Shown here one piece after another: positions 840 to 40,600 of a DNA stretch of 43,426 bases; the first letter of the stretch is position 1; the number at the start of each line of letters is the position of its first letter. A program made the position numbers and the translations under genes. The DNA comes from a virus, in IMG/VR virus record IMGVR_UViG_3300045741_000487, positions 1 to 43,426 of that record. The stretch is one strand, 5' to 3'. The notes under the pieces were generated by a model. It was not told the DNA's origin, made no database searches, and saw only the letters and a program-made list of their open reading frames with translations.

Positions 840-3800
840 TCATCCTCCGCTCGGCACTTCGATGGTCACGGCCAGCACGTCGAGGGGCAGTGGCAGATCC
901 TGACGGATCCAGACCTGCCCTTCCTGGTTCCAGTCGCCTGGCAGGTTCACCTGCTCGCGACCGGTGAATGCTTGCCCCACCGCCGGCCGTCGCGACGGTC
1001 GCAGCACGCCGGCGGCTGGCTCGAGGCTCGGATCTTCGGGCGCCGGACCAGATAGGAAGCGGCCCGATGCGTCGAGGCGCAGCCACAGCTGCGTCGGGTT
1101 CTTGGGCGTGCCAGTGCCGGCAGCGCTGGCCTGCAACGCGATCGGCAAGGTCTTGATGTCGGTGACGAACTGCAGGCCGAAGTGCGCGCGCGTGACGGCC
1201 GTCGTCGAGGTCCAAGTGCCGCCCGTGATGCGCGCCGTGCCGGCAACGCCGTCGGCGCTGTAGTGCACGGTGAGGCCATTGAAGCGATCGAGCCCGGTGA
1301 TCGTCTTCGTGGCCGGGCCGGAGTAGCTCATCCCGGAATCGACGTGGAACGCGTCGGCGTAGCTCGCGCGCTGGTGAGGTGCCGCTCGCTCGACGTAGAA
1401 CGCGTCGCCGGCGCCGAGGTCGCGCTTCGTCACTACGTAGAGGCGGTCCTCGTCGCCGTCCGGGATCGCGCAGACCGATTCGAACGAACCGTCCGTCACA
1501 TGCTGGTGCCACGCGCCAATCTGTTCCTCTGGCACGTAGGTGATCGCAAGCAACTTGCCAGACGCCGTGTTGTTCGCCATCGGGCGCGACACGAACCACA
1601 GCGTCGGCGTTGGGGCCTTCGCGTAGGTCTGCTGGCGGATCGAGAAGCCGTCGAACAGGTGGTAGGCGCGCAAGGACAGATCGCCGGTCAGATATCCCCA
1701 GACAGACTGGTCGAATGCCATCTCGCGAACGTGCTGGCCGCGCGACGAGACGAACACGATCGTGCCGTTGACGATGCTGGGAGCCACGCTGCTGGAACCG
1801 ATGTAGCTCTGTGGCCGCACGCTGATCGATTCCGGCGTGAGCGCGTCGTTGTTCTGCGGTGTCACGCGCAGTTCGACCGTGCTGCCGAGCAAGATCAAGT
1901 GCGTCAACGGAACGGCGTGCCGAATCGCAACAGCGCCGATATTCGCACCTGACGTGACGCGGAACAGGATGCGGTCGCTGGCGACCGTAGGCACCGAGTA
2001 GCTGAGGTCGGTGTCGGTGCCGCTGGCGCTGGCCCACACGTCAGCAGGTCGCAGAATCGACCCGCCAAGAATCAGGCGCTGCTCGAAGTAGGAGACGGTG
2101 CCAGGGAAGGATCCAGCCTTGGCGAACCACTGTCCGGTCGGCGCACCGCCAAGAGCGATCGCCGTCGTGCTGTCCTGCGTTGCAGCGAGCTGGAAGGAGT
2201 TGCCGCCGGAGTTGCCACCAGGCGCTGCGTTGAGCACGAAGTATGGCTTGCCCACCTCGATGCCGGTCGGCATCTCGACGGACGCGTCGAAGATCACCGG
2301 AGCCCCATTGCTCAGGCCGTGCCCTGGCCACACGACAGCGTCGTTGGCGAGGTCGAACGTGATCTGGCTGGACACGAGCAGCGACGTGTCGGGAACTGGT
2401 GCCGTGATCGAGGTGTCGGCGCGCAGGTTGCCCTCGTCGGAGAAGGATGGCGACTGCGTCTCGCCGATCAGGCCGAACAGCCCGAGCAGCTTGCGGTAGA
2501 CGCGGTAGCGAACGGCACCTGGCACCGCGCTCCACTGCAGTGGATTGCGCGCGCCGTCGACCAACAGGTTGTTGTAGACATCGACGACGTTTCCGGCACC
2601 GCTCTCGATCCCATCGGCATCGACCGAGGTGACGCAGTAGAAGTTGTGCGCGTCGACCGAGTTGCTCACCCGCACCGTGGCGTTGGGAGTCGCGCCGATC
2701 CCGGATGCGGTCACGCTTCTGCCGTCGGTATAGGTGCGAAGGTAGAGGTTGACCGTCGTCGGCGCCGACGAGTCGTGCACCGCGTAGAACCCGTCCGGGA
2801 TTCCTTTCGCAGCCAACCCAGCGACGAACAGCGGTTCACCATCCTGGAAGTTGTGCGGGGTCTCGGTCTGCAACTGCACCGGCGGGCCGACGTTCACCAC
2901 CTGATTGATGCCCATGCCGGCCCCTGGCTCGGGAGCAGGGCAGTTCAGGTCGTTGGGTGGCGCGACCGAGGTGCCGAACGTCACGTCGCGGAGCTCCCAC
3001 TTCGTTGCGCCGAGCCGTCGAAGCTCGGCCAGCGGCCGGTAGCGACTTGCGATCTTGACCACGTCGTTGCTCTGCGCAGTCTCGAACGCGAAGAGTTCGG
3101 CATCGGAGTAGTAGTGTGGCACCTCGTAGTAGGCGTTGCCGAACGCGATGACGCCCGAGGCACCAGCGCCGATGTCGATGATGGGACCAATCGGCGTCGC
3201 GGATACCTGGAAGTCGTCGGTGTTCTTGTTGCGCACGTAGTAGTTCGCGCCGAAGACGATCCCTACCGGAGCGGTCGTGCCGGAGAAGATGACAGGGTCG
3301 CCGTTGCCGTATCCGTGGGCGACGAGTTGCACGCGATTCGAGGTCGTGTCGAAGGTGACAGCGCCGCCGCTGCCTGGCACGCGGCACCAGTAGATGGTGT
3401 TGGTCGGCGGGCGTCCGAGGTAGTCCTCGGTCGACACGAACGTCGCGAGCCGCGAAGGATCGCCCCATGGGCGCTTCATGACGACCGCTGCGAACGGCCC
3501 TGGCGTGCCCATCGCGAGATCGCCCGGCTCGTAGGCATACTGCACTCGCATCGGCCCACTGCCCGAATGCGTGATGTCGATCGCGATGCCGGCGAGCGCG
3601 TCGGACCTCGACCTGGCCAGCTTGATGCGCTTCGGATCGCCGGTCGCGATCGCATAGTGCACCGTGCCTGGGAAAATTGGGTCATAGGGGCCGGACAACG
3701 CCGAGAAGTTCTGGCCAGCAACCGTCGGCACCAACGCCACCGAGCAGTTGAACGGAGCGCCGGTCAAGGCGATCGGCGTGCCGAAGCGCGTGAGACTGAT

Positions 3801-4646
3801 CTGGTAGAGAGTCCCCTTCGCGTAGACGTAGTAGACGCGGTTGGCCTCGATCTCTGCCGGAAGAGCGCCGGTCGTCGCGAACGTGACCGCGGCGCCATGC
3901 GTGAAGAAGCCGGTGCCGAGCGAGTAGTTGCCCGTGGTGAACGAGCCGGGAGATCCCAACGTGAAGTTGACCGGCGACAGCGTTGGCGTGGCCAGCAGCA
4001 CCACCGGGGCTCCCGTCGTGAACGCGTGGTTCGCGCCGAACACGACGGTGTCGCCCACAGAGTCGACGCCGGAGACTTCGTAGTAGCTGACCCCTGGTGG
4101 CGTGCCGCCCTGCCAGCCAGCGCCGAGCGTGATCTGCGTGGCCGTGTTCGCGGTGATGTAGCCCCAGCTGTTGCCGCATCGCAGCGTCATGCCGACGAGA
4201 CCGTTGACCGGGAAGGCAGCGCCACCGTCCGTCATCTGCGGCGCGCCGGCGGCTGTCGCCGTCGAGTTGCCGCTGGCCGTGAGCGTGTTGGATGCCGTGA
4301 CGAAGTCCGCGGGCTTCTGGTAGAGCAGCGGCTGGCCGTCGGAGTAGAAGCGGAAGTAGCCGATGTCGCGGCCGTCGACCGTCGACCTACCAGCCAGGAT
4401 CGCGAACGACTGCTCTTCGTTGAAGACGAACGAGAACAGCCGCGGCGTTGAGATGGCTGGTGACTTGACGTTGCCGACGAACTCGAAGCCACCGCGCCTC
4501 GAGACGCCGCCCGTCACTCGCACGACCGCGTTCCGCAGCAGCGCCACACCGCTCTTGCGCTTGGGATCGTCGTAGCGGTCCCACATGCCGAGCGACACCT
4601 CGCCGCCCGACAGTGACAGCTGCAGGTCGCGCTGGTGGCGGGTCAT
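840..4646 (-). CDS. Tail nozzle (T7 gp12-like tubular protein B), greatly enlarged
   Basis: The N-terminus (residues 8-60) has the typical podovirus nozzle signature: LSGGEVS, a polar segment, then a VTGGVSRRGGFEFV motif. The protein would form the hexameric nozzle below the gatekeeper. At 1268 residues it is much longer than T7 gp12 (794). The extra length comes from beta-rich insertions: copies of one module at about residues 244-306, 434-501, 581-638 and 761-840, and a fibronectin-III-like stretch at about 655-740 (VDADGIESG followed by W-x-A-V-P-G-A-x-x-Y-R-V-Y). The conserved nozzle core resumes after about 850. The start ATG overlaps the stop of the gatekeeper gene by 4 nt, as expected for two interface partners made together. 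Which face of the tail carries the insertions cannot be told from sequence. Confidence 0.85.
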   Translation of the reverse strand: MTRHQRDLQLSLSGGEVSLGMWDRYDDPKRKSGVALLRNAVVRVTGGVSRRGGFEFVGNVKSPAISTPRLFSFVFNEEQSFAILAGRSTVDGRDIGYFRFYSDGQPLLYQKPADFVTASNTLTASGNSTATAAGAPQMTDGGAAFPVNGLVGMTLRCGNSWGYITANTATQITLGAGWQGGTPPGVSYYEVSGVDSVGDTVVFGANHAFTTGAPVVLLATPTLSPVNFTLGSPGSFTTGNYSLGTGFFTHGAAVTFATTGALPAEIEANRVYYVYAKGTLYQISLTRFGTPIALTGAPFNCSVALVPTVAGQNFSALSGPYDPIFPGTVHYAIATGDPKRIKLARSRSDALAGIAIDITHSGSGPMRVQYAYEPGDLAMGTPGPFAAVVMKRPWGDPSRLATFVSTEDYLGRPPTNTIYWCRVPGSGGAVTFDTTSNRVQLVAHGYGNGDPVIFSGTTAPVGIVFGANYYVRNKNTDDFQVSATPIGPIIDIGAGASGVIAFGNAYYEVPHYYSDAELFAFETAQSNDVVKIASRYRPLAELRRLGATKWELRDVTFGTSVAPPNDLNCPAPEPGAGMGINQVVNVGPPVQLQTETPHNFQDGEPLFVAGLAAKGIPDGFYAVHDSSAPTTVNLYLRTYTDGRSVTASGIGATPNATVRVSNSVDAHNFYCVTSVDADGIESGAGNVVDVYNNLLVDGARNPLQWSAVPGAVRYRVYRKLLGLFGLIGETQSPSFSDEGNLRADTSITAPVPDTSLLVSSQITFDLANDAVVWPGHGLSNGAPVIFDASVEMPTGIEVGKPYFVLNAAPGGNSGGNSFQLAATQDSTTAIALGGAPTGQWFAKAGSFPGTVSYFEQRLILGGSILRPADVWASASGTDTDLSYSVPTVASDRILFRVTSGANIGAVAIRHAVPLTHLILLGSTVELRVTPQNNDALTPESISVRPQSYIGSSSVAPSIVNGTIVFVSSRGQHVREMAFDQSVWGYLTGDLSLRAYHLFDGFSIRQQTYAKAPTPTLWFVSRPMANNTASGKLLAITYVPEEQIGAWHQHVTDGSFESVCAIPDGDEDRLYVVTKRDLGAGDAFYVERAAPHQRASYADAFHVDSGMSYSGPATKTITGLDRFNGLTVHYSADGVAGTARITGGTWTSTTAVTRAHFGLQFVTDIKTLPIALQASAAGTGTPKNPTQLWLRLDASGRFLSGPAPEDPSLEPAAGVLRPSRRPAVGQAFTGREQVNLPGDWNQEGQVWIRQDLPLPLDVLAVTIEVPSGG

Positions 4647-7600
4647 CGGTTGGAGATGTGGTTCGGAACGTGCTGGATCTGGGGGCTGCGCTGGTTGGCG
4701 GCCAACGAACTCGCGGCGCCGAGGTAGGCGGCCATGTGACGGAGCAGGCGCTGCGACACCTGTTCGCCGGCGTCGCCGCGGATGATCGGGGCGGCGATCA
4801 GCGAACCGAGCTGCAGCGACAACGCCGAGCGGAACACCGACGGGAACTTGCCGGCGTCTCGGATGCGCGTGACGTAGCGCAGCGTGGCATCTTCCTGGTT
4901 GGTGAAGAGCAATCGCCTGCCGGAGTCGGTCTGCTCGATCTGGAACGGTGCGTCGGCTCGCCCCATCGCCTCGACCACGGGACGTTCATCGAACGCCGAC
5001 GGCGAGACCGACTGCGCCTGCTGGTAGTCGTTGTTGGGGTTCGGCGGCAGCACCGCGAACGAACACAGCGCGTCCGGCGGGATCAGGTAGCAGAACTTGT
5101 AGTGGTCGTAGAGCGGCGACGCCGGCGGCGTGGTCGCCGTCAGCACTCGCCGCGTCAGCGCGAAGTCCCACTGCCGCAGCGAGAGCAACGCGTCTCGAGC
5201 TTCGCCGAACAGAGACTGGCACACCTCTGCCTCGATCGAACCGTCGTCGAAGCTGGTCAGCGTGTTGGTCACGCCGATGTGCTTGAGCGCCGAGTTGCAG
5301 ATCGCAAGTTCGGCCTCGAGGTCGCGCTCGTCCTTGGTCATCTCGACCCACTGCGCGTAGATGCGGCGCTCGAGGATCGTCATGCCCTTGCCGGTGTGGT
5401 GTAGCACGTCGACACCAGCCATGCCGGGAAGCGAGGCGATGCGCGGCAAGTCGTCCTGCGAGATCCCGGTGCGCATGAACACGTCCTCGGCTGCCATCAG
5501 ATCCTTGGCCGCGTTCACCACGTCCGAGTATTGCCAAGGCGGATTCTCGCAGTGCGGGTCGATCCACTTGACCTCCTCGGCCGGGCCAGCGGTGAGACCG
5601 CGATCGAACAGTGCTTCCCGGACGGCCCGCTTGAACCGCGTGCCGTTCTCGTAGTAGCGGTTCGCGAGATCCTCGAACGACGAGTCGCCCTCGCCCTGCA
5701 GCCACACGATGCCGACGCACTCGGCCCCGACGCTTCCCTCAGCCGACCACGCGAGCACGGCCGCGTCCATCGTGTCGAGCAGGCGCTGGAAGATGTTGTT
5801 CGGATCGCCAGTCGGCGACCACGACATCATCGCGGCGCCATCGAAGTTCTCGATGCCAAGCGTCGGCGCCACGATCGGTGCCTCGCTGTGGCCTAGGTTG
5901 GTGCCACCGATCGCCAGCTGCACGATGTCGACCTGCTCGCCAAGTGCTTCGGCAAGGGCGACGCCCAGGCCGGTCGAGAACGTCATCTTCGGATCGCCCA
6001 GGCGAGACGGCCCCGTGAACGGTTGGTAGATGCCGCCCGTGATGCAGTAGTGGTTGGGATGGTTGAAGCCAGGCGGGAACGGATTCACCTTCGCTTCCTG
6101 GCGAAGGATCGTGGCAAGCACGTTGCCGCTCGAGGCGAACACCGACGTGCCGTCGATGCGGACGCCTTGGTAGGTCGAGGCGATGTAGGCGGCGGCCGTG
6201 TTGGCCTCGACGCTGTAGTAGCGCTGCCCCAGCCGGACCTTCGGCGTGACCGCACCATCGCCGTAGAAGCGCAGCACCTCGTTGGGCCAGATGGTGGGGA
6301 CGGTCGCGAGAATCGGCAGGCCGATGGATTCGCTTAGGCTGCCAGCCGCCATCTGGAATGGGCCAGACCATGTCGCCTTGCCCTCGAACGGGCACCACGG
6401 CAGGAACAACGCCCACTTCTTCCACGGGATCGCGTTGCCGTTGGCGTCGGTGGGTGGCGTGATCTCGTAGGTGTCGCCAGCGCCTGGCGCGTTCGTGAAC
6501 GCGGTGCCGAGTCGGAGGAATCCCTTCCCGCCGCTGTAGTAGGAGTCTGCCAGCGGCACAGTCTGGCCGGCGTTGGCGCCGGTGAGCGCGGTGATGTAGC
6601 AGCCCGTGTGCGAGCCGACGAACACCTCCTGCAGGGTGACGATCGACGACTTCGCTTCTGCGTCCGTGATGATCACCTCGGTGCCACCTGGAGTCGCCGA
6701 CACGTAGAACGCGAAGTAGGCGTCCTGGCGCACGATCTTCGCGCTGATGGTTGCTTGCGCGCTGAACGCCACGGCGGCTCCGTCCGGCGCCAGCGACAGC
6801 TGCACGTATTGCTGGTCGAGCACGGTCACGTAGTAGTCCGTGGTCGTGTTCAGTTCGGCCGGCAGCGTGCCAGTCAGCCGCACCTTCTCGTTGTTCGTCA
6901 GCGTGTGGGATGTCACTCCGGGAAGCGCGGCCAGGATCTTGTCGTTGACATCGTCCCAGCCCTGCACGGCGATCTCTTCGAGTTCTGTGGCGAGGCGAGT
7001 GACGTAGTAGGTGGCCGATGGCGTGATCGCCAACGGCAGGTGGAACTGGACCGCGACAATGCCGGCAAGCGCTCCGGTGATGTTCACCGGTGTGCCGCCT
7101 CGCGTCGTGCTGACCTTGATGTCGAGGCCAACCGAGTAGACGACGAAGTAGCCGATGTTGAGCGTGATCCCTGGGATCGCGCCGCCTCCGCCATCCGTGA
7201 ACACGACGGTGTCGTTCACGACGAATGGGTTCGCTCCGAGCAGCGTGACGATCTCGGTTGCCGGCGTCGTCGAGGTAACCAGCGCGATGCCGGCGCTCTT
7301 CGTGAATGCAACAGGCTCGCCGACGTAGACGGGCCGCGTCTTGATCGTGAAACGCGAGAAGGTCGGCGCTCCTGCAGCGTCGAGCACGGTGCGGATTGAT
7401 GCGCTGTGCGCGATCGTGTCGAGCAGCGACCCAACGTCGCAGAGACCTCCGCACATGTTCAGGAGCTTGAGTTCGCTCGCGCTACTCGCGGCACCGCCGG
7501 TGATCGGGAAGCTGAACACCTCGCCGAACTCGGGCGGCGGATACAAGGTCGGCGACACCGTGATCTGGTTGGTCGCAGCGGCCCATCCGGCCTGCACGGT

Positions 7601-8137
7601 GTGCTTCGATCCGGTGCGCTTGCGCGTGATGACCAAGCCGACCGGGTCGTATTGCCAGCGGACGCTGGTCTGCAGCACCGACGGCGTCGACCCAGGCATG
7701 ATCGTGCCGTCGCCGGGGAACGTGTAGGTCTCCCCGATCCCCAGGTTCATGTAGTTGCAGGTCGGGTTGTAGAAGGTCAGGAACCGGATCGCGTTGATGC
7801 ACAGCCCGCGCGTGTCGAACTGCTGCCACTTCCCTACCTCGCCACCGTCACTGAAGCGGCCAAGCCGCGGGCCGCCGGCGAACGTGCCAGGCATCGTGAA
7901 CAGCTCCTGGTAGCTGTCGGCCCCCGAGATCACGTTGCGCGGCGCCAACGGGCTGCGGATGCGCAGCGTCTTGTGCTCGTCCTCCCAGGTCGGCGCGTCG
8001 GCGACCGCGGTGGCGTTGCTCTGACCGATCACCAGAAGGAACTTGCGCTTCTTCGCCATGGCCGCTGCTGATTGGTTGGTGGCACCGAGGGTCACTGCGC
8101 CACCGGACGACGGGCCCGAAGAAGGTGGCGGCGCCAT
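4643..8137 (-). CDS. SGNH/SASA-type esterase fused to tail gatekeeper (T7 gp11-like tubular protein A)
   Basis: One uninterrupted 1164-residue frame with two identities. The C-terminal ~230 residues (from about 933) match podovirus gatekeepers: AICNSALKHIGV, TSFDDGS, a RDALLSLRQWDFA block and the C-terminal MAAYLGAASSLAANQRSP helix. The rest carries the blocks of a sialate/acetylxylan O-acetylesterase (SASA, CE6 type): GQSN with nucleophile Ser40, GGTN near 742-745, WLQGEGD near 811-817 and a catalytic D-x-x-H near 910-913. Block I is separated from the next block by about 600 residues holding beta modules (about 292-365, 405-467, 613-677). An in-frame ATG at 5341-5339 could give a stand-alone gatekeeper of 232 residues, but only a weak GTGGG precedes it. 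The enzyme would remove acetyl groups from host surface sugar; substrate unknown. Confidence 0.85.
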   Translation of the reverse strand: MAPPPSSGPSSGGAVTLGATNQSAAAMAKKRKFLLVIGQSNATAVADAPTWEDEHKTLRIRSPLAPRNVISGADSYQELFTMPGTFAGGPRLGRFSDGGEVGKWQQFDTRGLCINAIRFLTFYNPTCNYMNLGIGETYTFPGDGTIMPGSTPSVLQTSVRWQYDPVGLVITRKRTGSKHTVQAGWAAATNQITVSPTLYPPPEFGEVFSFPITGGAASSASELKLLNMCGGLCDVGSLLDTIAHSASIRTVLDAAGAPTFSRFTIKTRPVYVGEPVAFTKSAGIALVTSTTPATEIVTLLGANPFVVNDTVVFTDGGGGAIPGITLNIGYFVVYSVGLDIKVSTTRGGTPVNITGALAGIVAVQFHLPLAITPSATYYVTRLATELEEIAVQGWDDVNDKILAALPGVTSHTLTNNEKVRLTGTLPAELNTTTDYYVTVLDQQYVQLSLAPDGAAVAFSAQATISAKIVRQDAYFAFYVSATPGGTEVIITDAEAKSSIVTLQEVFVGSHTGCYITALTGANAGQTVPLADSYYSGGKGFLRLGTAFTNAPGAGDTYEITPPTDANGNAIPWKKWALFLPWCPFEGKATWSGPFQMAAGSLSESIGLPILATVPTIWPNEVLRFYGDGAVTPKVRLGQRYYSVEANTAAAYIASTYQGVRIDGTSVFASSGNVLATILRQEAKVNPFPPGFNHPNHYCITGGIYQPFTGPSRLGDPKMTFSTGLGVALAEALGEQVDIVQLAIGGTNLGHSEAPIVAPTLGIENFDGAAMMSWSPTGDPNNIFQRLLDTMDAAVLAWSAEGSVGAECVGIVWLQGEGDSSFEDLANRYYENGTRFKRAVREALFDRGLTAGPAEEVKWIDPHCENPPWQYSDVVNAAKDLMAAEDVFMRTGISQDDLPRIASLPGMAGVDVLHHTGKGMTILERRIYAQWVEMTKDERDLEAELAICNSALKHIGVTNTLTSFDDGSIEAEVCQSLFGEARDALLSLRQWDFALTRRVLTATTPPASPLYDHYKFCYLIPPDALCSFAVLPPNPNNDYQQAQSVSPSAFDERPVVEAMGRADAPFQIEQTDSGRRLLFTNQEDATLRYVTRIRDAGKFPSVFRSALSLQLGSLIAAPIIRGDAGEQVSQRLLRHMAAYLGAASSLAANQRSPQIQHVPNHISNR

Positions 8138-8141
8138 CAGT

Positions 8142-8468
8142 TCACGGTGGTGTCACTTCGATGGATGGCTGGGATCGACCGGGCTGCATGCCGATCGGAC
8201 CGGTGAGGTTGTGCTTTTCGCGATGCCCCTCGGTGGTCCACTCCGGGGCAGGGACGCCGGAGCCGCCGCTGGCACTCTTCGTCGACTTCAGCGTGCGCTT
8301 CGCTCGGGGCGGGGCGATCTCTTCGTTCGCGTCGACGAAGGGACCATCGGGAGTGATCGGGACGCAGGTCTCGACCACCTCCCCAGGTTGGCGCAAGCGC
8401 TCGTCGATGAAGCACGTGGAGGTGATGCGGACCAGCTGCGGCCGCGTCTCGGTCTTGGCGTTGGCCAT
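8142..8468 (-). CDS. Small structural-region protein, function unknown
   Basis: A 108-residue reading frame with ATG at 8468-8466 and a GGAG-type ribosome site (GGAGAAAC) just upstream. The first half (about residues 10-50) has an FIDERLRQPGEVVETCVP pattern like small phage head-tail module proteins of the 'x-G-E-V-V-x-V' type; the second half is Pro/Gly/Ser/Lys-rich and probably disordered. It lies between the decoration-type gene and the esterase/gatekeeper gene, with 4 bases to the next start. It is chosen over an overlapping frame (8137-8484) because that frame is Arg/His-rich and has no ribosome site. No function is assigned. Confidence 0.65.
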   Translation of the reverse strand: MANAKTETRPQLVRITSTCFIDERLRQPGEVVETCVPITPDGPFVDANEEIAPPRAKRTLKSTKSASGGSGVPAPEWTTEGHREKHNLTGPIGMQPGRSQPSIEVTPP

Positions 8469-8488
8469 CTGTTTCTCCGTTCACTCCG

Positions 8489-9058
8489 TCACACCGGCAT
8501 GCGCGATTGCACGAGGCGGTTGGTGTTGTCTCGGCTCGGGTCGACTACCAGCCGTGCGCGGAACGCGCCGGCGCTGAAGCCGGTGTTGCCGCCAACCGCG
8601 TGGTTCGGCACCGTCAGACACAAGCCGAACCACGGCAGTGCCCGCTGCAGGTAGATCTTGCTGTAGTTGTAGCCGGGGATGTCGATGACGAAATTGGCGC
8701 CGGCCACGTTGTAGCCCTGGGTCGCGAAGTCCGCCGCGGTCCAACCGATCAGCGGGATTGCCTGTGCCACCAACACGCCACCGCTCTGGCCGATGAACTG
8801 CGTGTTGCCGACGAGGTTCGACGCATCGCTGATGCACATGGCGAAGTTGGCAACAGCCACCGCGCCACCGCCGGCATCCACCAACGGCGTCACCGTTTCG
8901 ATCTGCAGGTAGACACGCCGACCCTCGCCTGGTTCCCAGGCAAAGGCTGAGTCCGTGCCAGCGTTCAGCTGCAGGTTGTTGGTGCTGAGCGAGATGAACT
9001 GCCCGGCGGTTGGAACGCTGACCGAGATCAGCGTGCCACCGTAGTTGTCGACGATCAT
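8489..9058 (-). CDS. Probable minor capsid or decoration protein
   Basis: The ATG at 9058-9056 (MIVDNYGGTLIS) is preceded by GGAG at 8 bases, so it is preferred over the longer in-frame start at 9106; the protein has 189 residues. It is predicted to be mostly beta strand with hydrophobic and Asn/Gly-rich turns, no Cys-x-x-Cys and no enzymatic motif. It sits directly after the cement-type protein and before the tail genes, a place used for head-decoration or head-completion proteins. I do not recognise the family with certainty; a structural role is inferred from position and composition. Confidence 0.6.
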   Translation of the reverse strand: MIVDNYGGTLISVSVPTAGQFISLSTNNLQLNAGTDSAFAWEPGEGRRVYLQIETVTPLVDAGGGAVAVANFAMCISDASNLVGNTQFIGQSGGVLVAQAIPLIGWTAADFATQGYNVAGANFVIDIPGYNYSKIYLQRALPWFGLCLTVPNHAVGGNTGFSAGAFRARLVVDPSRDNTNRLVQSRMPV

Positions 9059-9088
9059 GGGGATGTCTCCGTTGGAAGGGGTTGTTGT

Positions 9089-9119
9089 CGGGGCGCCCCC
9101 GACCACGCAGAGCGCCCCG
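9089..9119 (-). other. Stem-loop after the cement-protein gene
   Basis: CGGGGCGC (9089-9096) pairs perfectly with GCGCCCCG (9112-9119), an 8-bp GC stem with a 15-base loop, beginning just after the stop of the 292-residue gene. No U-run follows on the minus-strand RNA, so it is probably an mRNA-stabilising or processing hairpin and not a full terminator. Confidence 0.5.
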
Positions 9120-9124
9120 GCTCC

Positions 9125-10003
9125 TCAGATCACCATGCCCGAGGCGTAGAACTTCAGGCCGTCGCCCACCGCGTCGGGCAGGATGTCGACGGTGAAGGCG
9201 CCCGCGGTGATCGTCGCGGATGGGATGTAGCGCAGGTAGTAGTAGCGCTGCGCGTTCGCCGTGAGACCGCCGGATCCTGCGATGCCCGTCGCCGGCGTGG
9301 CGAGTGGCGAGGTGCCCAGTGGAGCGGTCAGGGTCTGGCCGGTCGGCAGAGCCTGGTAGGGCGTCATGCTGGGCAGCGGCATGATCGGAACCACCAGCCG
9401 CGCGCCGAGCACGAACAAGTCCTTCAACTGCGTTCCGGTGGTCGCGTGGACCGTCGGCAAGAAGTTCATCGTGGCACCGGTGAAGTCCGCGGTGATTTGG
9501 TCGACCGTCGTTCCTGCGATCGCGTTGGCAAGCGAAGCCGCGAACTTGAACGTGCTCGAGGTCTGTGGCACCGCGTAGTAGATGGTGTTCAGGTTCGTTC
9601 CCGAGCCACCACTTCCGGCGCTGAAGTAGAACGGCGTGCCCAACGGCAAGCCGTGGTTGGCGATGGTGACAACATCGGTTGCCGCTGGAACCGATAGGCC
9701 GGTGATCGTCAGCGTCTTGCCTGAGGTCGTCGCGTTGGTCAACAACGACGCCAAGATCGGCAGCGAGACCAGCTGGAGCTCCAGCGTGCTGGCGAACGTG
9801 CCCGAGGTGACCGCCGTGGTCACGTTGATGTTGAGGCGCAGGTTCTCGCCGGCGCCAATGTCGTTGAGCGTCCGCAGGTTCTGCGTGAAGCCGGACAGAT
9901 CGAGGGCGAGGGTGACGGATGCCGCGCCGAGGCCGCCGGGCGAAGCTCCCGCGTTGGGGACGACTTCTGCGGTGGCGAGGCGAAGGCCATTGTCGGTGAA
10001 CAT
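9125..10003 (-). CDS. Capsid cement protein, Bbp16-like, with inserted beta module
   Basis: The N-terminus (MFTDNGLRL, then A-S-V-x-L-x-L-D-L-S-G, then D-I-G-A-G-E-N-L-R-L-N-I-N-V) resembles Bbp16-type cement proteins that clamp capsomers in BPP-1-like phages. Those proteins are usually about half this length. Here residues about 104-178 hold an extra module (VTIANHGLPLGTPFYF, IYYAVPQTSSTFKFA) of the same kind seen repeatedly in the nozzle and the esterase-gatekeeper. The C-terminus has YYYLRYIPSATITAGAF, normal for the family. A CGGAG ribosome site lies 7 bases before the ATG. It is encoded directly after the major capsid gene, matching the BPP-1 order. Family membership is moderately sure; exact capsid site is inference. 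Confidence 0.65.
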   Translation of the reverse strand: MFTDNGLRLATAEVVPNAGASPGGLGAASVTLALDLSGFTQNLRTLNDIGAGENLRLNINVTTAVTSGTFASTLELQLVSLPILASLLTNATTSGKTLTITGLSVPAATDVVTIANHGLPLGTPFYFSAGSGGSGTNLNTIYYAVPQTSSTFKFAASLANAIAGTTVDQITADFTGATMNFLPTVHATTGTQLKDLFVLGARLVVPIMPLPSMTPYQALPTGQTLTAPLGTSPLATPATGIAGSGGLTANAQRYYYLRYIPSATITAGAFTVDILPDAVGDGLKFYASGMVI

Positions 10004-10091: not shown

Positions 10092-11105
10092 TCACGTCAC
10101 CTGCCCCTCCGTGTTGACCAACGCGTCGCACTGGCGGATCGGAACCCCGAGGAAGCTCAGCATTGCCTGCGGCGTGCCGAACTGCGAGAGGGCTGGATTG
10201 AGCGCCAGCGCGGTGTTGCTCCTCTCCATCGCCGTCCGCATGAGCGCCGTGAACACGGTGCGGTTCATGTAGAAGACGCACCGGCCCATCGACATGTTCG
10301 GGATGCGCGCGATCGCCTGCGACATCAGGTGCAGGATGTTCGTGAGCGCCGTCGGCGCCAGCACGCCGGAGAGTGCTGCGAGCACCGTCGCCTGCAGGTT
10401 GCAGATGCGCACGGCGTAGCGCCAGTCCTTCACGACGAGGCCCGTCTTCCACTGGAAGCGCTCGGCGAGCACCTCCATGCGCAGGCCGGTGCCGCCGGCG
10501 TCGTAGCTGGTCTGACGGCCGAGATCCTCCTGGATCAGGCCTGCCTTGCTGCCCTTCGGGAACGGGCAGAACACCGTCTGGTCTGACCAACAGACGAGCC
10601 AGATGCTCGTGTTGATGGCACCGGCGCCGCCGCCGCCGTTGAGGATGTTGGTCGAGTTGCCGGCCGACAGCGAGCTGTAGCGCGGCGCGAGACCGAGGAA
10701 CTGCTTCGGGTCGGTGGCCGGGTTGCCATAGAAGAGGCCCGTGGCCATCGTCTGGTTCATGCCCTCGATGAACAGACGTGCCTCGCTGAGGCGGAACTCG
10801 GCAGTGTTGCCGTTGAGCATCGCCAGGTCGATGTCGACCTCGCTGCGCGCCTCGAGGATAGAGCAGCCCTCGTCGACCTGCGCGGTCGTCGCCTTGCTCG
10901 TCGGGATGCCCTGGTTCAAGGCGCGGTAGTAGACCGTCGGCAGACCGGTCGCGATGGTGACGCGGTGGCCCGTGGGCAGGTTGCCCTGCACGTAGGTCGC
11001 GTCGGTGAGGATCGCGTTGGTCTGGCTGAGCAGGTTCGCGATGATCGGAACGGTGCCGTCTGGGTCGACGCGCTTGCTCCAATCGATGAGGGTGAGGTTG
11101 GCCAT
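10092..11105 (-). CDS. Major capsid protein (HK97-fold, BPP-1-type)
   Basis: A 337-residue protein of the short major capsid family of BPP-1-like podophages. Recognisable stretches are the N-terminal MANLTLIDWSKRVDPDG, V-x-G-N-L-P-T-G-H-R-V-T-I-A-T-G-L-P, EARLFIEGMNQTMATGLFYG and the C-terminal LSFLGVPIRQCDALVNTE, which fit the N-arm, E-loop/spine and P-domain regions of that family. It builds the icosahedral shell together with the scaffold encoded immediately upstream and the cement protein encoded downstream. Start at ATG 11105-11103 with a GAGAGA ribosome site. The strong hairpin that follows the stop fits a heavily translated mRNA. Confidence 0.92.
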   Translation of the reverse strand: MANLTLIDWSKRVDPDGTVPIIANLLSQTNAILTDATYVQGNLPTGHRVTIATGLPTVYYRALNQGIPTSKATTAQVDEGCSILEARSEVDIDLAMLNGNTAEFRLSEARLFIEGMNQTMATGLFYGNPATDPKQFLGLAPRYSSLSAGNSTNILNGGGGAGAINTSIWLVCWSDQTVFCPFPKGSKAGLIQEDLGRQTSYDAGGTGLRMEVLAERFQWKTGLVVKDWRYAVRICNLQATVLAALSGVLAPTALTNILHLMSQAIARIPNMSMGRCVFYMNRTVFTALMRTAMERSNTALALNPALSQFGTPQAMLSFLGVPIRQCDALVNTEGQVT

Positions 11106-31625: not shown

Positions 31626-34600
31626 CTACCGCAACACCAGGCGGGCCGGGCCTGCCAGCGGCACACCGGTGACCATCGTGAACCACGCCGCGATGACGCG
31701 CCAGTCGGCGTTGGTGGTCTGGTCGCCCATCGCCGCCTTGCCGATCTCAAGGAGCCCGCGGTAGAAGTCTCTCGCCATCGTGGCGCCTGGCGCCTCGAGC
31801 ACGCGCGTGCCGTCGCTCTGTGCCAAAGCGAGCAACAGCGGCCCGGCGAACGGCACAAGCCCTACCGCGTTGCGTGCCAGGTTGCCGCCAAATCCCATCG
31901 CTAGGTCGTCGATCTTCGAGTCGTCGTGGTCGCGGTCATCGATGCCGCCGCGGAACAAGGTCTTCACCGCATACTCGAGCACCGCCGGCAGCAGCAGCGC
32001 CCAGCCGAACGCGGACGCGCGCGACTGCGAGCCCATGATCTGGTTGAGCACCAGGTTGCTGTAGTTGCCGAACTGCGTCCACAGCGACACGAACGGATGC
32101 GTGATCGAGAATGGCGCCATGCTCTCGGCGTTCGCGGCGCCCTGCGCCAGTCGCACAGCCTGGTCGGCGCGCTCAACGGACTCGGCCTCGGACAGGTTGG
32201 CGTCCTGTGACTCGTGATACGAGCCGAGCCACGTCGCCTTGTCGGCGAACATCTGGAACACGCGCTGAGGGAAGAACGCCCATCGCGCCATCGCTTGCCG
32301 CGCGCCCGAGATGGTCGCGGCTACCGGACCCTTCGATGCACGCGAGATTTCCTGCTGCAGCCGCATCACCTGGTCGTCCCACCGCTGTTGCATCGCCGGC
32401 GATCGGTCTGTGATGAACGTGGTGGTGATGTGCGGGCTCCACAGCACCTCTCGCGACGCCGCGCGCAGGTGCTTCCCCGCGACGTAGTTTCGCGCGTTGC
32501 TGACGCCGCCCGCCTGCAGCATTGAGTTCGCCAAGTTGAACCCTAGGTATGCCAGGCTCGCAGCGCTCCGCATCACGCGAACGGCGCTGTCCAACACGGG
32601 CCATTGCGTCGGCAGGCTGGTTCGCTGCAGCGCCGCGTTCTGCATCGTCGGGACGATCACGCGCGTTAGCAGTTCCCGATCGTATTCGTTCAGCAGATCC
32701 TCAAAGCGCACCGATCCTCCGCCCTCGGTCTCGAGCCGGCCGCGGAGGATCTTGTGCATGTCGTTGAGCACCGGTTCCAAATGGATGAACCGAAGCTCTT
32801 CGTCGACGTTGCTGACCATGGAGCCAACATCGAGCTGCAGCGGCGGCCGGTAGCTGTCGGATCGGTTCAGCGTGAATCCCTTCTTCGTGCCGACACTGTA
32901 TTGGAAGTCGTCGGCGGTCGACGTGAACTCGGCGTCGGCAGAGCTGTAGCGCTGCAAGAACTTCTTCGGCGCCAATCGGCGGTCGGCGCGCTTGGGCGTG
33001 TAGCCGCCCTCGAGCACGCCGAACGGCGTCTGCACGGCGCGCTTCTCGATGGTCTTGAACTCGTAGCCGAAGCGCAGCTTGTGCGTCGCCTGCGCGAGCG
33101 GCAGAAGCCCCTCGAACGTCCCCCACCAGTCGGTCAGGAACTTGTTGTCGGCCTCGGTCAGAATCTTCTCGGCGTAGAACCAGCGAACTGCAGCATCCCA
33201 GCGCGAAGTGTCGAGTTGCTTAGTGCCGTCCTTGCCCTCGACCATCTCGCCCCAGCCGCGGCCGACGAGGTTGGCTTCCAGGTTCGACAACGTGCCCGCG
33301 TTGAGCATGGCGCCGAGGATCTCGCGCACGCCGTTGAACGTGAACTTCTGCCCATTGCCGCGTAGGTCGGGAACGTCGATGCGCGTGTGCCATGCTGCAC
33401 CATGCCGCTGCTGCGCCTCGCGGATGGTCTCGGCGAGCCGCGCGACGAGCGGCGCCTTGGCCGCCCGGTAGCGCTCCAGAGCGCGATTCATGGGCAGCAC
33501 GAGGTATCGCTGGAACGCGCCACCAGCCTTGCCGCCGTCGATGTAGCGGGCCGCGTGCTCCCAGATCTTGAGGCTCGACAGCACGCCCCATCCCTCGAGC
33601 ACGACCGTCTTGAGCAGTCCCGGAGTGTGATCTGCTGGCGGCCTGGCGGTGTTCGAGCGAGCTGGTGCGGATGCCAGCTGGCTGGCGAGTTCGCCGAGCG
33701 CCTGGCGTGTCGCGATCTTCGAGGCCTCGCTGCTGAGCTGGCGCTCGTCGGCGGCAGCATCCCACAACTGCTCGCCGACCTGCCGCAGCTCTCGGAACTC
33801 CGCGACGGTGAGGTGGCGCCAGTCGAGCAGCTTCCCGGTGGCGATGGTTGGCGTGCTGGCGAGATGCGCTGGCTTGGCCCGGGCGAGCAGGGGCTTCAGC
33901 CGCTCCCACTCGACCGGATGCTCTGTCGCGACACGTTCGAGCGCCTTGTTCGCCAGCGCCACGCGCTGTTCGCTCTCGAAACCTGGGTGCAATTGGTAGG
34001 CCGCCGCGAGCGCCTGCGCCGCGTAGGCGAGGTCGATGTCGCGCGTCTTGGCGATCGCTGCGTCGGTGCCGTCGAAGGATCGGAGCAGGCGCACGCCAAC
34101 GCCGACCTCCTTGCGCACCTTCTCTGCCTGCGAAGCCATCTGCTCGAGCATCAGCTGGCGACGCTTCCACTGGATTGCCGCGACGCGGTCGCCTTTCTGC
34201 ACCGCCTTCTGCGCTGCGAGGCTGGCGCGCTTCACGCCCTCGAGCATGCCGCTGGCCGACAGGTCGCCGACGGCGCGCCCCTCGAGCGCTCGGCGGGCCG
34301 CTTCCTTGGCTACGGCCATCGTCACACGCACCGGCTCCATCGACTTGTCGAGCGCTCGCAGCTCGGCGGCGACGAACCGCTGGCGGGCCTCGTTGTGCAA
34401 CGCATCTTCGGCGGCCGCGCGCCGCTGGCGTGGGTCGGCAAGCTCGGGATGCTCTTGCAGCATGCGCGCATCGAGCGCCTCGTCGACGGCGGTGTCGATC
34501 GGCTTTGCGGTCAGCATCGCCTGCAGCAGATCGCGGCTGGTGGGGAAGCCGAACATGCCGGCAACCGTGTCTACCGGCAGTCCGTCTGCCGCCAGGAACT

Positions 34601-37600
34601 TGCGCAGCGCCGCCATCTGCTTCTCCGGCGGCAGCGTCGCCAGAGACTTCGTGGACTCGTCGGGCAGCAGTTCGGTGCCAAGCAGATCTTGCTCGACCAC
34701 ACCAGGGGCAAGGATCGACGCCACCTCGTCGCGGCTGAGCTTGTGGACGCCTTCCGCCTTGTGCACTTGCCCGTCGGCCTCGACCTCGCCGGTCTGCAAC
34801 CAGCGCATCGCGCGGTGCACCGGTTCCTTGCGGACCTCCTGCTCGACCTCCGGGCGCATCTTCTCGCGCACGGCCTTGGCTTCGCGCCGGCCGGCCACGT
34901 CGGCCTTCGCCAGTTCGCGGCCGAGCCACTTCATCACGCGCAGGCTCGACGCGTCCATCTTGGCGACGGCCGCTTCGTCCGCCTCCTGATGCAGGCGCTG
35001 GTGTTCCGCCCACGCGGCGTTGTCCATGCCGGATTCCTCCTGCGTCAGGAACGCTGGGACCGCGCCGCGTGTCGCCTGCGCTGCCTGCACGGCCTGCTCG
35101 CTGGCGACCATGCGATCCATCACCGCTCGGATCTCTGGCGTCAGCCGCTTGGCGGCAGTCGAGAGCATCAGTCGGCTGTAGACGCGGCGCAGGAACGCGG
35201 ACAGGCGAGCGAACAAGCGGGCGAGACCGGGTTCTGGAGCGCGCCCCTCGAACAGGTGCGCCTCCCAGGACTCGGCGAACATCTCGTGCGCCTTGCGCTT
35301 CTCGGCCAGCGTCTTCGTCTTCCACGATTCCGGCGTCTCGCCGGCCCACGAGAGGAACGTGTTGAAGTCGTCGACGAACTTCGGATGCGCCTTCTGCTCC
35401 CACAAGCGCTCGTAGATCGTGAGGAACGCGTGGGCGAGTTCGTGGCTGAACGTCGAGAAGTTGGCGTCCTTGTTGAGGATCACCCGCATCGTCCGCGGGT
35501 CGAACGCGCCGCGGATGATCTCGTCTTCGGTCTGGCCGAAGAACTGCTGCGCGTCCCTGATTAGGGCGTCGCGCTCGGCGGCTGCGGCTCGCTGCCGCTG
35601 CTCGGCTTCGTCGAGGGCGCCGGCGTAGGCTCGGGCGGCTTCGGCGGCGATGTCGGTGGACGACGGACCGACATGATCAGCGCTCCGTGGTTGAGCGGGT
35701 GATCCGGCGGCAACGGGTGATTCCTCGGAAGCCTTCGTGCTGGCATAGTGTTCTCCGCGACTGCGGAATGCGGAGTGCAAGTCTACCACGCCCACGGCGA
35801 AGCGCTCTTCGAGAAGCGGTTCGATGGCATCCGCCAGCTGCTGCGCGGTCATGCCGGCCATCTTCGGGTCGACGCCGATCAGCATCGTGTTGCCGTAGGT
35901 GGAGTGCCCGACGGCAGCGTGCTTTCCCTCGAGGCCCGTGATCGGCCACAGCACCTTCGTGTAGAGGTCGTCGATCTCCTGCGTCGTGAATCCTTCCGGC
36001 AGATCGATACGCACCGCGGCGCCGGCCTCGAGGCCGGGCCCTGCCTGCAGGGACATGACGAACATGCCTTCCTGGTGCAACGCGGCGCCGAGGCTGTCGG
36101 CCACGGCGACGGCCTTGCTGGCATCGTTCAGCAGGACCGAGATCGAGGCCTCTGGCGTCCCCAACCACGCGCCGCGCTGCGGCACCAGCATGCCCTCGAC
36201 GCCGTGTTGCCGGAGCACCATCGGGACGACGCGCGACAGCACGTCCTGAGTCGCTGCCGACCTATCTTCGGGCGTCAGCAGTTCCCATCGCTTCATCAGC
36301 TCGGGGTTGGTGTTCGGCTTCGCCTCGACCATCACCCTCGCCGCCGGCGACGCGAAGCGGTTGGTCTCCTGCTTCATCTGCGAGCGGCCGAGGCCCGCGT
36401 AACTGTCGCCCTCCGGCGTCTTCGGCGACTGCTTCTTCCACGGCAACTCGCCGAATCCACCGAAGGCCTTGGCGATTTCCTCGCGAGCCTGCTGCTGCGT
36501 GATGTCGCCGGCGGTGTAGCGACCCCAGATCTGGTTGGCCTTTGCCGGCAGATCGCCTTGCAGCGCCTTGTCGGCTTGTGCTTGCGCTTCTTCTTCGGTG
36601 ATCTCGCCGATGTCGAGCTTGTTGTAGATCTGCTCGAGACGCTTCTGCGTCTGCGCTCCGGTGCGTTTCTCTGCGGGCTCGAACATCCGACGCACCTGCT
36701 CCCAGGTGATCGATTGCACCTCACGCGGCAGCAGCCCGTATTGCCTCCCGACGCGAGCGTAGGCCTCGGCCATGATCGGGTAGAAGCCGAGCAGTCCTGT
36801 GGCGCGGCTGGTCGTGCCACCCTTGCCGCCCCAGACCTGCGTGACCAGATCGTCTGACGACGAAACCGGCAGCAGATAGCCGGCGGCGACGGCGTGCGTG
36901 TCGAGAGTGATGTGGCCGCGGCGCGAGTTCGGCGCGAACAAGTTGTCGTAGAACGACCGCACCTTGTGCTCGGCACCAAGCTGTTGGTAGACGTTCGCGA
37001 CGCTGCCGTCGTTGAGGATCGACACAGCCTTCGCGATGGTCGGGAAGCTGCTCCACTGCATGCGGGTCGGGTCTTTCCCGAACGTGCCACCTTCGGGCGT
37101 CCACTGCGAGAGGTCGGCTCGGTTGTGCGCCTGGTCGAAGACGCGGATCCAGTAGGCCGCTACGATCGGGTCGTTCAGCACCTCTCCCAAGGACTTGCCT
37201 TCGACAGCTGCGCGCAGCTGCTTTGTCCGACCCTCCCACTCCTTCGGTGCCTTGATGCGACCAAAGCGACGGTTGGCGCGCTCGGTCATCGCGGCGTCCC
37301 ACTTGTAGTCGCGCATCGCCGTCACTGCGTCGAGGATGCGCTCCGCCATCGACAAGTTGACGAACCAGTTTCGCTGCGGACTCAATACCGCGATCACCGC
37401 GGCGGCCTGCATCGTGCTGATCCCGTAGCGTTGCGACCAATGCTCGACGACGCGACGGCCGCCGTCATACCAGAGCCGCGAGCGGGCTCGATCCTCCGGC
37501 GACATCTGGTTGACGAGCCATTCCAAGTTGTCGGCAACGTGCTTCACGTAGGTCTCGATGACCTGCTCGTCGGTGGCGCCTTCTGGAACGCGCAGGAACG

Positions 37601-40600
37601 GCAGCTCCCGCAGGGCGCTCGCGTTCTTGGCCACCGCCGTCTTGTCCTTCATCATCACGGACAGGTCAGTGCTGAGCACGTTGGTGCGCGGATCCTCGGT
37701 GGCCTTCTCGCCACCGGGAAGACGCGTCGACACTTGCTGATTGAACGTCGGCGTCGCGCTGGCCGTGCGGCCAAGAACGGACCACGAGTCGCGCACCGTG
37801 CCGCTCGTGAACACCACGTCGTATGGCTGGACGCCAACGGAACTCAGGAACCCGCCGAGGTTGAGGATCGCGGATCGCGTCAGTCCGGTCGCGTCAGTGC
37901 CGCTGGCGACGATGAACGCGCCCGATGCATTCGCAACACTCAGCGCCCGATAGAGCGCGTCCATGCGTCCGGCGACGCGCAGTTCGTTGACCTGCTCCTG
38001 GGTCACCGGCACGAACGCAACGGGCCGCATCTGCGTGTCGAGCAGCATGATCCCGGAGTCCTCGCCGGCGACCTTCTTCGCCATCGCCAGGGCGCCGTCG
38101 GGTCCGGTGATCTTGACTTGCTCGAGCTGGCCGTGCTCGAGGAGCACGCGCTCGACCACTGGCACCGTCTTGGTCGGCGCGTCCTGTTTCAGGTCGGTCC
38201 ACCCGCTGCTCAGGGTGTCCTGCGCGTCCGCCATCTCCCACCTGACCCCATCGCCGAGGCCGCCGCCAAGGGCCATGAATCCCCGCCACGTGATGCCTGA
38301 TCCGCGGAACGCCTCGGCTGCCCGAGTGTTCATTGAGCGATCCGCTCCGCTTAGCGTCTCCTTGCCGCTCGGGTGGTTGTGCGCCAGCCAGATGTTCGCA
38401 GCACCCTTCACGCGGAAGGCTTCTCCAATCAGCGTGGGCAGGTATAGCGGGGCCTCTGAGACAGCCCCCTTGAAGCCGCCGACGATCGCCAGCGGTTTGC
38501 CGTTGCGGTCTGTCACCAGCCCGTCGACGCGCTCGACGGCGCCGCGCCGCAAGTGTGCTAGGGCTGCGGCGGCTTCGGCTGCGTTGGTGACGTTACCAGC
38601 TCCGATCTCTCGCCGTTGCGTTTCGACGAGGGTGGTGCGGGTGGCGTAGACGCCGGCCACGTCGTCGCGGACTCCCCATCGACTACGCGATCGCGGGGCG
38701 GCACGCCCACGCTTTCCTCGGGCGGTTTCCACTGGAGCAGTCGAAGCAGTGGCAGTGTCCCGCTGTGCTGGTTGAACATTGGCACCGGTAGTGTCCTGCT
38801 CCCGCGTCGCCGTGTCCACTGCCGGCGCCGGAGTTGTCCACTTCTGCCTGAAGTGCTCGACCACCTCACGCAGCCATGGCAACTTGTGACGGTCGGCGGT
38901 GTCCAGTAGCGCGTCCGCTCCTTCAAGGTTCCCCTGGATAAGCGCCTGCACATGCGGGTTCAGCCACCCCGCCATCACGGGTTCGGTCGACGACAGCTTG
39001 GCCATGCCGTCCTTGGCTGCCTGCAGCGCGCGCTGGTCGGCCTGCGGCGTGTCTTCGTGCGCTGTCTGGTGGAACGTCTGGTCCTGGCCGGCGGCGTCGC
39101 GCAGTGCGCGCATGACCTGTTCTTCGGCGGCGACGCGGTTCTCGACCGGCGCTGCGTCGAAGGCCTCGATGGCCTTGGTCACGCTCTCTGGAGCCCCCTC
39201 GACGCCACGCACGGCGTCGACCACGTTGGCCACGTTATGAATCGCTTGGTCGTTCTCGTCGTAGCGGTCGATGACTTGGCCGATCTGCGTCGAGGCTCTC
39301 GACTGCGTAAGCACGGCGTCGCCAGAAGCGGTCGTTCCGTGCAGCGCGGTCAGCGGAAACGCGGCCTGGAACTGCTCGGGAGTCATGCCGAGCTGCACCC
39401 GGTTGGCCTCGATGAACGCAGGCCACAGGCTCGCCTGCGCGCGAGCATCTTCAGCGCGCCGGTATGGCATCAGTCCCGTCGCCTGCAGCTGCGCTGTCAG
39501 GTGGTCCTCGATGGCGCGCAGCTGCCGGCGGTTCACGGTGAGATCTTCCGCTTGCTGCTCGATCGCAGGCTCACCCATCTTGTTCAGGATCTCTTCGGTG
39601 CGGTCGGCGTCATGCTCGCTCAGCGCGTCTTTGTCTCCCCACCTGGCCAATGGCATGAACGCGCCATCGGCGAAGCCGGACAGCTTCGTCTGGAACGTCC
39701 CCGATGGCATCACGATGTCGCCAGCCTGCGCAGCCTGGCGCCGCACCTCGTCGCTCATGCCTGGGATCACACGGTCGAGAGACTCGAACAACGATCCGCG
39801 TTGCTCGCCTTCGGCATGGCCTTCGGTTGGCTTGCCGCCCTGCTTCAGCATCTCCTCGACTTGCGACGCGTCCAGGTAGACGTTGACCAGATCGGTAGCT
39901 GCATCGGCGTTGTTGGCGAACTCCTCGAGCGCTGCCGGGTTCTCGAGGCCGATCTTCGACATGGCGACAGCCTGCGCCTTGCGCCGCGCGAACTCGCCGG
40001 CTCGCCTTGCCCAGGCGACACGCCCCATCTCGTAGTTCGCGTGCATCGCCGAACCGGGGATGCCGATCAGCGACACGCCCTGCGCGGTCTTGATCGCGAT
40101 CTGCGCGAGTCGATCTCCGATGCCATCCCACTCTCCGGTCGCGGCGCCTTCGGAGATGATCTGAGACACCTCCTGCAACACCTCGGTTCCGACCTCGCCG
40201 GCGACGCCCTTCACGTAGCCCCAGGCGGCGCGCGCCGCGGCTTTGCCAATGGTCGGCGACGCAGCCTCGTCCAGCACGCGGGCGAACAACTCCTTGCCGA
40301 TCGTCTTGCGGATCGGCTCGGCGAGGAACTCGGCGCCGACGTATTCGAGAGCGGTGTTCACGATGCCGACAGCCAAGCCAAAGGACGCTGCGTCGAGCTT
40401 CGGCACGCCCTTCTCGAGCAGGTCGGCGTATTGGTTGCCGGTCTCCATCATCAAACCCTGCGTCAACCCGACACTCAGCGAGCCGAAGGCGAACGCTCCG
40501 GGGACGGTGAGCCCCATGCCTGGGCCAGTCTCCCAGGTCGCGGCAGTGGCGACGCCGGCCGCGGCAAGGCCAGCAGCCAGTGCGTCCTGCATCTGTGCGC

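Follow-up and report, generated by a model that had tools for sequence, protein, structure and literature searches.

Accessory Beta-Domains of Phage Virions

Ig-like domains are promiscuous accessory beta-domains of phage head, tail and fibre proteins (lambda gpV, the T5 tail tube, T4 Hoc), and weak carbohydrate binding has been proposed for them; the module described here is likewise an accessory beta-domain found in several kinds of virion protein, but its best matches indicate a different fold. For beta-domains that face outward on phage tails or capsids, surface binding has been proposed in general terms (PMC8718954, PMC7602432). The T1 tail tube (9l0f) has a domain, called Ig-like by its authors, whose residues 16–94 extend outward from the tube (PMC11945409). 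The beta-barrel of endosialidases (PF12195; K1F 1v0e, phi92 4hiz) resembles our module in motif register (HGLKVGDAVNF in phi92) and may be similar in fold. In K1F, three sites bind polysialic acid; the barrel is one of them, and also a hotspot of host discrimination (PMC12632334). That barrel lies within a sialidase and has a shown sugar-binding role, whereas the modules of this locus lie in shell and tail proteins and their ligand is putative.

Tail nozzles with E1_FCCH domains (PF16190), from Vibrio phage MZH0603, Pelagibacter phages and Xanthomonas phage CP2, carry the same module by transitive profile search, in the same host protein and partly at the same insertion site, with several copies per nozzle in ctRVW222 and ctype202. 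The copies studied here differ in belonging mostly to another subtype, below the Pfam cut-off, and in occurring also in a capsid cement protein and in an esterase arm. That cement protein is similar to Bbp16 of BPP-1 and gp42 of Carin1 in its jelly-roll core, its place after the major capsid protein and its C-terminal extension; it differs by an insertion of ~105 residues that holds the module and by a second insertion (aa ~210–250).

Virion Genes of the Locus

The window, by which we mean the whole 43.4-kb virus record that was analysed (IMG/VR record IMGVR_UViG_3300045741_000487, positions 1 to 43,426), is assigned by its genes to a short-tailed, BPP-1/Carin1-like phage. Gene order follows those two phages: GP7-type major capsid protein, cement, small proteins, gatekeeper, nozzle and a gp14-like internal virion protein. 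The nozzle, esterase-gatekeeper and cement genes all lie on the minus strand, with coordinates as in the original prediction.

840..4646, minus strand: tail nozzle protein, 1268 aa (phrog_376, 2e-123; Carin1 nozzle 8ck1_A, 5e-61)
4643..8137, minus strand: predicted SGNH/SASA-type esterase fused in frame to a gatekeeper (connector) domain (PF03629, 29.2 bits against a cut-off of 24.8; C-terminus phrog_394, 7e-32, and 8ck1_E, 8e-12)
4646..5320, minus strand: gatekeeper/connector domain of that protein, aa 940–1164 (phrog_394; BPP-1 Bbp14, Carin1 gp37)
9125..10003, minus strand: capsid cement protein, 292 aa, of BPP-1 Bbp16/Carin1 gp42 type (alignment to BPP-1, Carin1, ctEw122 and DC33 cements, including C-terminal KFYASG; directly after the GP7-type major capsid protein)
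10092..11105, minus strand: major capsid protein, given for context (PF20911 GP7, 5e-115)

One Module in Three Virion Proteins

The original prediction held that nozzle, esterase-gatekeeper and cement share one beta-module, and profile searches bear this out; the outcome it named as refuting, a profile that misses copies in some of the three proteins, did not occur. In pairwise phmmer comparisons only some window copies find each other (noz2 and noz4 at 4e-5, noz1 and est1 at 0.004), so a profile was built from outside sequences, seeded with one nozzle domain of Vibrio phage MZH0603 (Pfam E1_FCCH, 1e-14) and iterated over fetched phage loci only. Its strictest form comprised 32 modules, with the window and every cement sequence excluded (the cements of the related locus L012 among them). 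Searched against six-frame translations of the window, it recovered the nozzle at 2e-17, the esterase-gatekeeper at 4.8e-7 and the cement at 1.3e-5; the next-best frame reached E 2.2 and 20 shuffled windows gave at most 5.5 bits, so that exactly three window proteins carry the module and no fourth was found by this search. The copies are listed below; paired E-values refer first to an external profile without window sequence and then to the 32-module profile, which also lacked cements.

3960..4073, minus strand: split copy noz0, first half, nozzle aa 192–229 (profile score of the joined halves)
3555..3686, minus strand: split copy noz0, second half, nozzle aa 321–364 (profile score of the joined halves)
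3729..3947, minus strand: noz1, nozzle aa 234–306, inside noz0 (0.06; 0.23; profile 15.8 bits, 0/200 shuffles)
3141..3359, minus strand: noz2, nozzle aa 430–502, the clearest copy (9e-13; 1e-10)
2667..2912, minus strand: noz3, nozzle aa 579–660, marginal (8.6 bits, 0/200 shuffles; 7.6 bits, 1/2000 shuffles)
2121..2363, minus strand: noz4, nozzle aa 762–842 (3e-4; 0.0023; z 13.9 to noz2)
7043..7285, minus strand: est1, esterase-gatekeeper aa 285–365, in the long insertion between GQSN and GGTN (0.002; 0.0014; 19.9 bits, 0/200 shuffles)
6731..6955, minus strand: est2, esterase-gatekeeper aa 395–469 (0.012; 0.014)
6104..6322, minus strand: est3, esterase-gatekeeper aa 606–678, doubtful (9.6 bits with one profile, absent with a second)
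9449..9766, minus strand: insertion in the cement, aa ~80–185 (ordinary cements of ~144 aa align straight across)
9458..9697, minus strand: cem, cement aa 103–182 (3e-10; 1.3e-5)

Six copies are clear at the sequence level: noz1, noz2, noz4, est1, est2 and cem. Modules are ~65–80 residues long and keep a conserved register of HG..xG..V.F followed by YYV / F.(L/V)S.T motifs; outside this fold-forming motif they vary freely. Direct sequence searches of the window copies against Pfam and PDB gave no significant match, and one module alignment was too diverse for scans of sequence collections. Convergence of beta-rich, low-complexity sequence from separate origins would account for the fact that several window pairs score no better than shuffles, and small Thr/Ser/Gly-rich beta-domains do yield chance matches; set against the profile E-values, the shuffle controls and the common register of the motifs, however, such an origin is highly improbable. 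We therefore take the shared module to be real and well supported by these searches.

Nozzle Copies and a Nested Module

Homology to the nozzle family over its N- and C-terminal core identifies the 1268-residue protein as a T7-type tail nozzle. The core is common with BPP-1 Bbp13, and ~590 extra residues lie in the middle of the protein, where other nozzles bear other inserts. At least four copies had been claimed for this protein, and three are clear (noz1, noz2 and noz4), to which the split noz0 can be added. Rejoined without noz1, the two halves of noz0 score 24.4 bits with a cement-type module profile, a value reached by 0/300 shuffles, compared with 14.8 for the uncut stretch; noz1 inside noz0 thus reads as one module inserted into another. 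We did not accept noz3 as a firm copy, its score being marginal (1/2000 shuffles reaches it). Among the subtypes it most resembles the E1_FCCH one seen in related nozzles, its best pair scores being with nozzle modules of ctype202, ctRVW222 and L077.

Another beta-rich insert, not clearly of module type, occupies nozzle aa ~109–191 (4074–4322, minus strand). Different inserts are found at this site in other nozzles (ctEw122, MZH0603), which marks it as an insertion hot spot.

The Esterase-Gatekeeper

The C-terminal part of this protein is a gatekeeper/connector (tail tubular protein A) by the phrog_394 and 8ck1_E matches given above. Its N-terminal part is a predicted SGNH/SASA esterase, with PF03629 above its cut-off and the catalytic motifs GQSN at residue 38, GGTN at 744, GEGD at 815 and DVLHHTG at 910; est1 and est2 consequently lie within the ~700-residue stretch between the first two motifs. 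About three copies had been expected here. Two are clear, and the third, est3, was rejected as a firm copy, being missed by the second profile (its 9.6-bit score was reached by 1/200 shuffles in one test and 0/300 in another). A nested arrangement like that of the nozzle, with a split est0 around est1, was also considered and rejected, its joined halves scoring near chance. No relative of the esterase part was found in viral contigs or phage records. The gatekeepers of ctRVW222 and ctype202 carry other, unrelated N-terminal extensions.

The Cement Protein and Its Insertion

Sequence, the fold of Bbp16/gp42 and gene position after the GP7 major capsid protein identify the cement as a BPP-1-type jelly-roll protein. 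Its single module, as originally predicted, was recovered by a profile devoid of cements. Mixed alignments of cements and modules misplaced short cements onto the module and were left out of folding, and the AF2 model, made from an alignment of cements only, is of low confidence (pLDDT 54, pTM 0.61). Its core aligns with the Carin1 cement 8cjz_A (Z 8.9, 125/129 residues), the insertion being skipped. In the alignments the insertion is a clean one, entering between two beta-strands of the core in a protein that otherwise has no module. Going by the published strand order of Bbp16 (PMC3863775), it would sit in the loop that joins strands E and F of the outward-facing sheet. Whole-model Foldseek matches to picornavirus capsids were rejected as a sign of kinship, since the jelly roll alone explains them.

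The module is present in 4 of 88 cement-like frames, those of the window and of three tandem L012 genes, and 84 are without it; many of these are closely alike, so they do not count as 84 independent cases. Most frames (85 of the 88) are 144–178 residues long, including the third L012 gene, which bears a module and is cut by the contig end; the other three exceed 300 residues. The L012 genes (L012:5045-7379) are consecutive and overlapping, 44–50% identical pairwise, with one module each. A search for related loci with the cement alone found no relatives.

Fold and Family Relations

AF2 folding of esterase residues 257–520 gave a confident model at est2 only (pLDDT 70–94). The alignment used contained other modules, so the est2 model is not fully independent of the assumption of homology. 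It matches the FCCH half-domain of UBA6/UBA1 (UBA6 212–293) with Z 9.4 and rmsd 2.1 over 79 residues, which makes est2, with other modules in its alignment, the one copy placed in the FCCH fold by its own model. Next, at Z 6.4–7.9, come tail-tube or head-to-tail structures from T1, FCWL1, phiXacJX1 and Mystique. The phi92 endosialidase scores Z 5.7, and matches around that level are not telling, as unrelated EF-Tu barrels reach Z 5.8. For the module region of the low-confidence cement model the matches are weak (Z 4.0–4.3, to UBA6, the T1 and Mystique tail tubes and K1F endosialidase), and at the Z 4.0 of K1F unrelated EF-Tu barrels score alike.

Family searches gave little at the level of gathering cut-offs. 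E1_FCCH (PF16190, cut-off 29.5 bits) matched no window protein at E <= 10 and only one of 19 modules of the window copies' subtype (0.084). No window copy exceeded the cut-off of the endosialidase beta-barrel (PF12195, 35 bits), for which 4 of the 19 modules gave subthreshold matches (best 0.0011; L005 18.9 bits). Ig-like, Big and Fn3 Pfam families had no match at E <= 10 in the three proteins. Modelling supports, for the module, an accessory domain like FCCH or the endosialidase beta-barrel rather than a new fold. The T1 domain described as Ig-like (9l0f residues 14–97) is matched by the FCCH-like est2 model at Z 7.9, in a stretch that coincides with the outward-projecting residues 16–94, and may possibly have been misnamed.

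Occurrence and Origin of the Copies

Other phages carry the module widely in their virion proteins. It is present in nozzles from Vibrio, Pelagibacter, Xanthomonas and uncultured phages, one Vibrio phage nozzle among them being annotated as chitin-binding. It was also found in the gatekeeper of the relative L097 (phrog_394 2e-30; E1_FCCH over its cut-off), an SU10-type adaptor (L095), a head protein (L096, phrog_240), the major tail protein of a siphophage (PS-1), a tip attachment protein and cyanophage fibres. In BFVD, the top matches by fold are to phage proteins, and several of these bear tail or fibre names.

The original prediction saw in the module a mobile unit spreading by recombination within the genome. 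Its presence in shell and tail proteins alike is supported, as is the clean cement insertion, but recent spread within this genome is not supported by comparison of the copies. Better-aligned pairs are 46–56% identical at the DNA level, and blastn among the copies gave no match better than E 0.16 and hence no DNA-level duplication. In a poorly resolved module tree, cem groups with the L012 cement modules (99/99), two subtypes are split at 98/96, and noz2 falls closer to modules from other phages than it does to its own sisters.

A recent duplication of a single module in the window genome would explain at least six copies in three of its proteins, and of all the modules compared the cement copy scores closest to noz0 (57, next 53). 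Such copying has a precedent in L097, where the modules of gatekeeper and nozzle show 73% DNA identity across 168 nt (E 2e-22), with one pair as tree sisters; this is direct evidence of copying between tail genes within one genome. For the window, however, the lack of DNA similarity, the grouping of cem and noz2 with modules of other phages and the different subtypes inside one nozzle make recent duplication improbable. The two subtypes and the module within a module point to several old insertions. The simplest reading of the tree is that the cement gained its module once, before the split from the L012 lineage, and that those of the nozzle are of earlier date or of other origin.

Proposed Role of the Modules

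We consider it rather likely that these FCCH-like or endosialidase-type barrels, inserted into surface loops several times, long ago and from different sources, act as low-affinity, multivalent binders of the host, probably of its glycans. The insertions would have entered the jelly-roll cement at a single loop, the nozzle at two or three sites, and the esterase within its long insertion. Because virion copy numbers (by analogy with related phages, hundreds of cements, six nozzles and twelve gatekeepers) would multiply the module, projecting modules could together offer the host a surface of many weak binding sites, with glycans as the most likely ligand. The esterase, predicted in the same virion protein as est1 and est2, would trim or deacetylate these glycans, and the modules of nozzle and capsid would meanwhile keep the particle attached to the cell. 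The module is thus probably a putative surface-exposed 'velcro' for the host. This explanation builds on the established homology of the copies, the clean cement insertion and the wide occurrence in virion proteins of other phages, together with a fold assignment that modelling supports. Putative glycan binding is suggested by the K1F barrel site, the chitin-binding annotation of a module-bearing nozzle, the esterase that accompanies the modules and what has been proposed in general for beta-domains facing outward. The outward T1 tail-tube domain and the endosialidase fold matches fit a putative decoration or adhesin unit, as originally proposed.

FCCH in E1 enzymes is not known to bind sugars, so the FCCH fold does not by itself imply glycan binding. 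A structural role, in which modules strengthen contacts between subunits (as do YSD1 domain 2 and the Ig domains of the lambda tail) or serve as spacers that bind nothing, is favoured by the standing of FCCH as a structural half-domain in E1, by the extra contacts made by added domains in other tail tubes (PMC8718954) and by the free variation of the copies outside the fold-forming motif. We regard such a role as less likely than binding, since 84 of the 88 cements are without the module, which is therefore not needed for capsid stability, and the T1 domain of the same fold projects outward.

Relation to Earlier Work

The domain kind and its promiscuity were already known; new are the insertion into the cement, the sharing of the module by three virion proteins within a single genome and the copy nested in another. 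In the literature searched we found no earlier description of the module in a capsid cement protein and no paper on FCCH domains in phages, an absence that is not proof. As a tentative generalization, which we hold to be possible but would not yet bet on, FCCH/endosialidase-barrel modules may, like the Ig-like domains, constitute a promiscuous class of phage surface domain, the second of its kind, exchanged between proteins of head and tail (nozzle, gatekeeper, adaptor, tail tube, fibre, cement) as a multivalent glycan 'velcro' and even nesting; some published 'Ig-like' domains (T1 tail tube) would belong to it, and the FCCH of eukaryotic ubiquitin E1 would be a cellular relative in the same superfamily. 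The shared module offers a defined, searchable domain for a pattern so far ascribed to Ig-like folds, one accessory module on both capsid and tail of the same virion. It would also mean renaming some 'Ig-like' domains of tail tubes and would set the ubiquitin E1 FCCH in a phage context. A cement family mostly without the module and sometimes with it is a natural experiment on whether capsid modules aid adsorption.

Other Features of the Record

Two further reading frames of the window were noted.

31626-41273, minus strand: largest reading frame of the genome, single, 3215 aa, at the place of BPP-1 bbp10
8489-9106, minus strand: 205-aa product (weak match to a cement profile, E 0.0045)

The external-profile search of the window found no module copy in the 3215-residue frame. 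By its weak profile match, the 205-residue product is perhaps a second cement-like protein, without a module. A frame open from 255 to 1 runs on in frame from 43426 to 41270 on the minus strand, giving 803 codons without a stop, and this uninterrupted frame across the record ends suggests that the window may be a circularly closed, complete genome.
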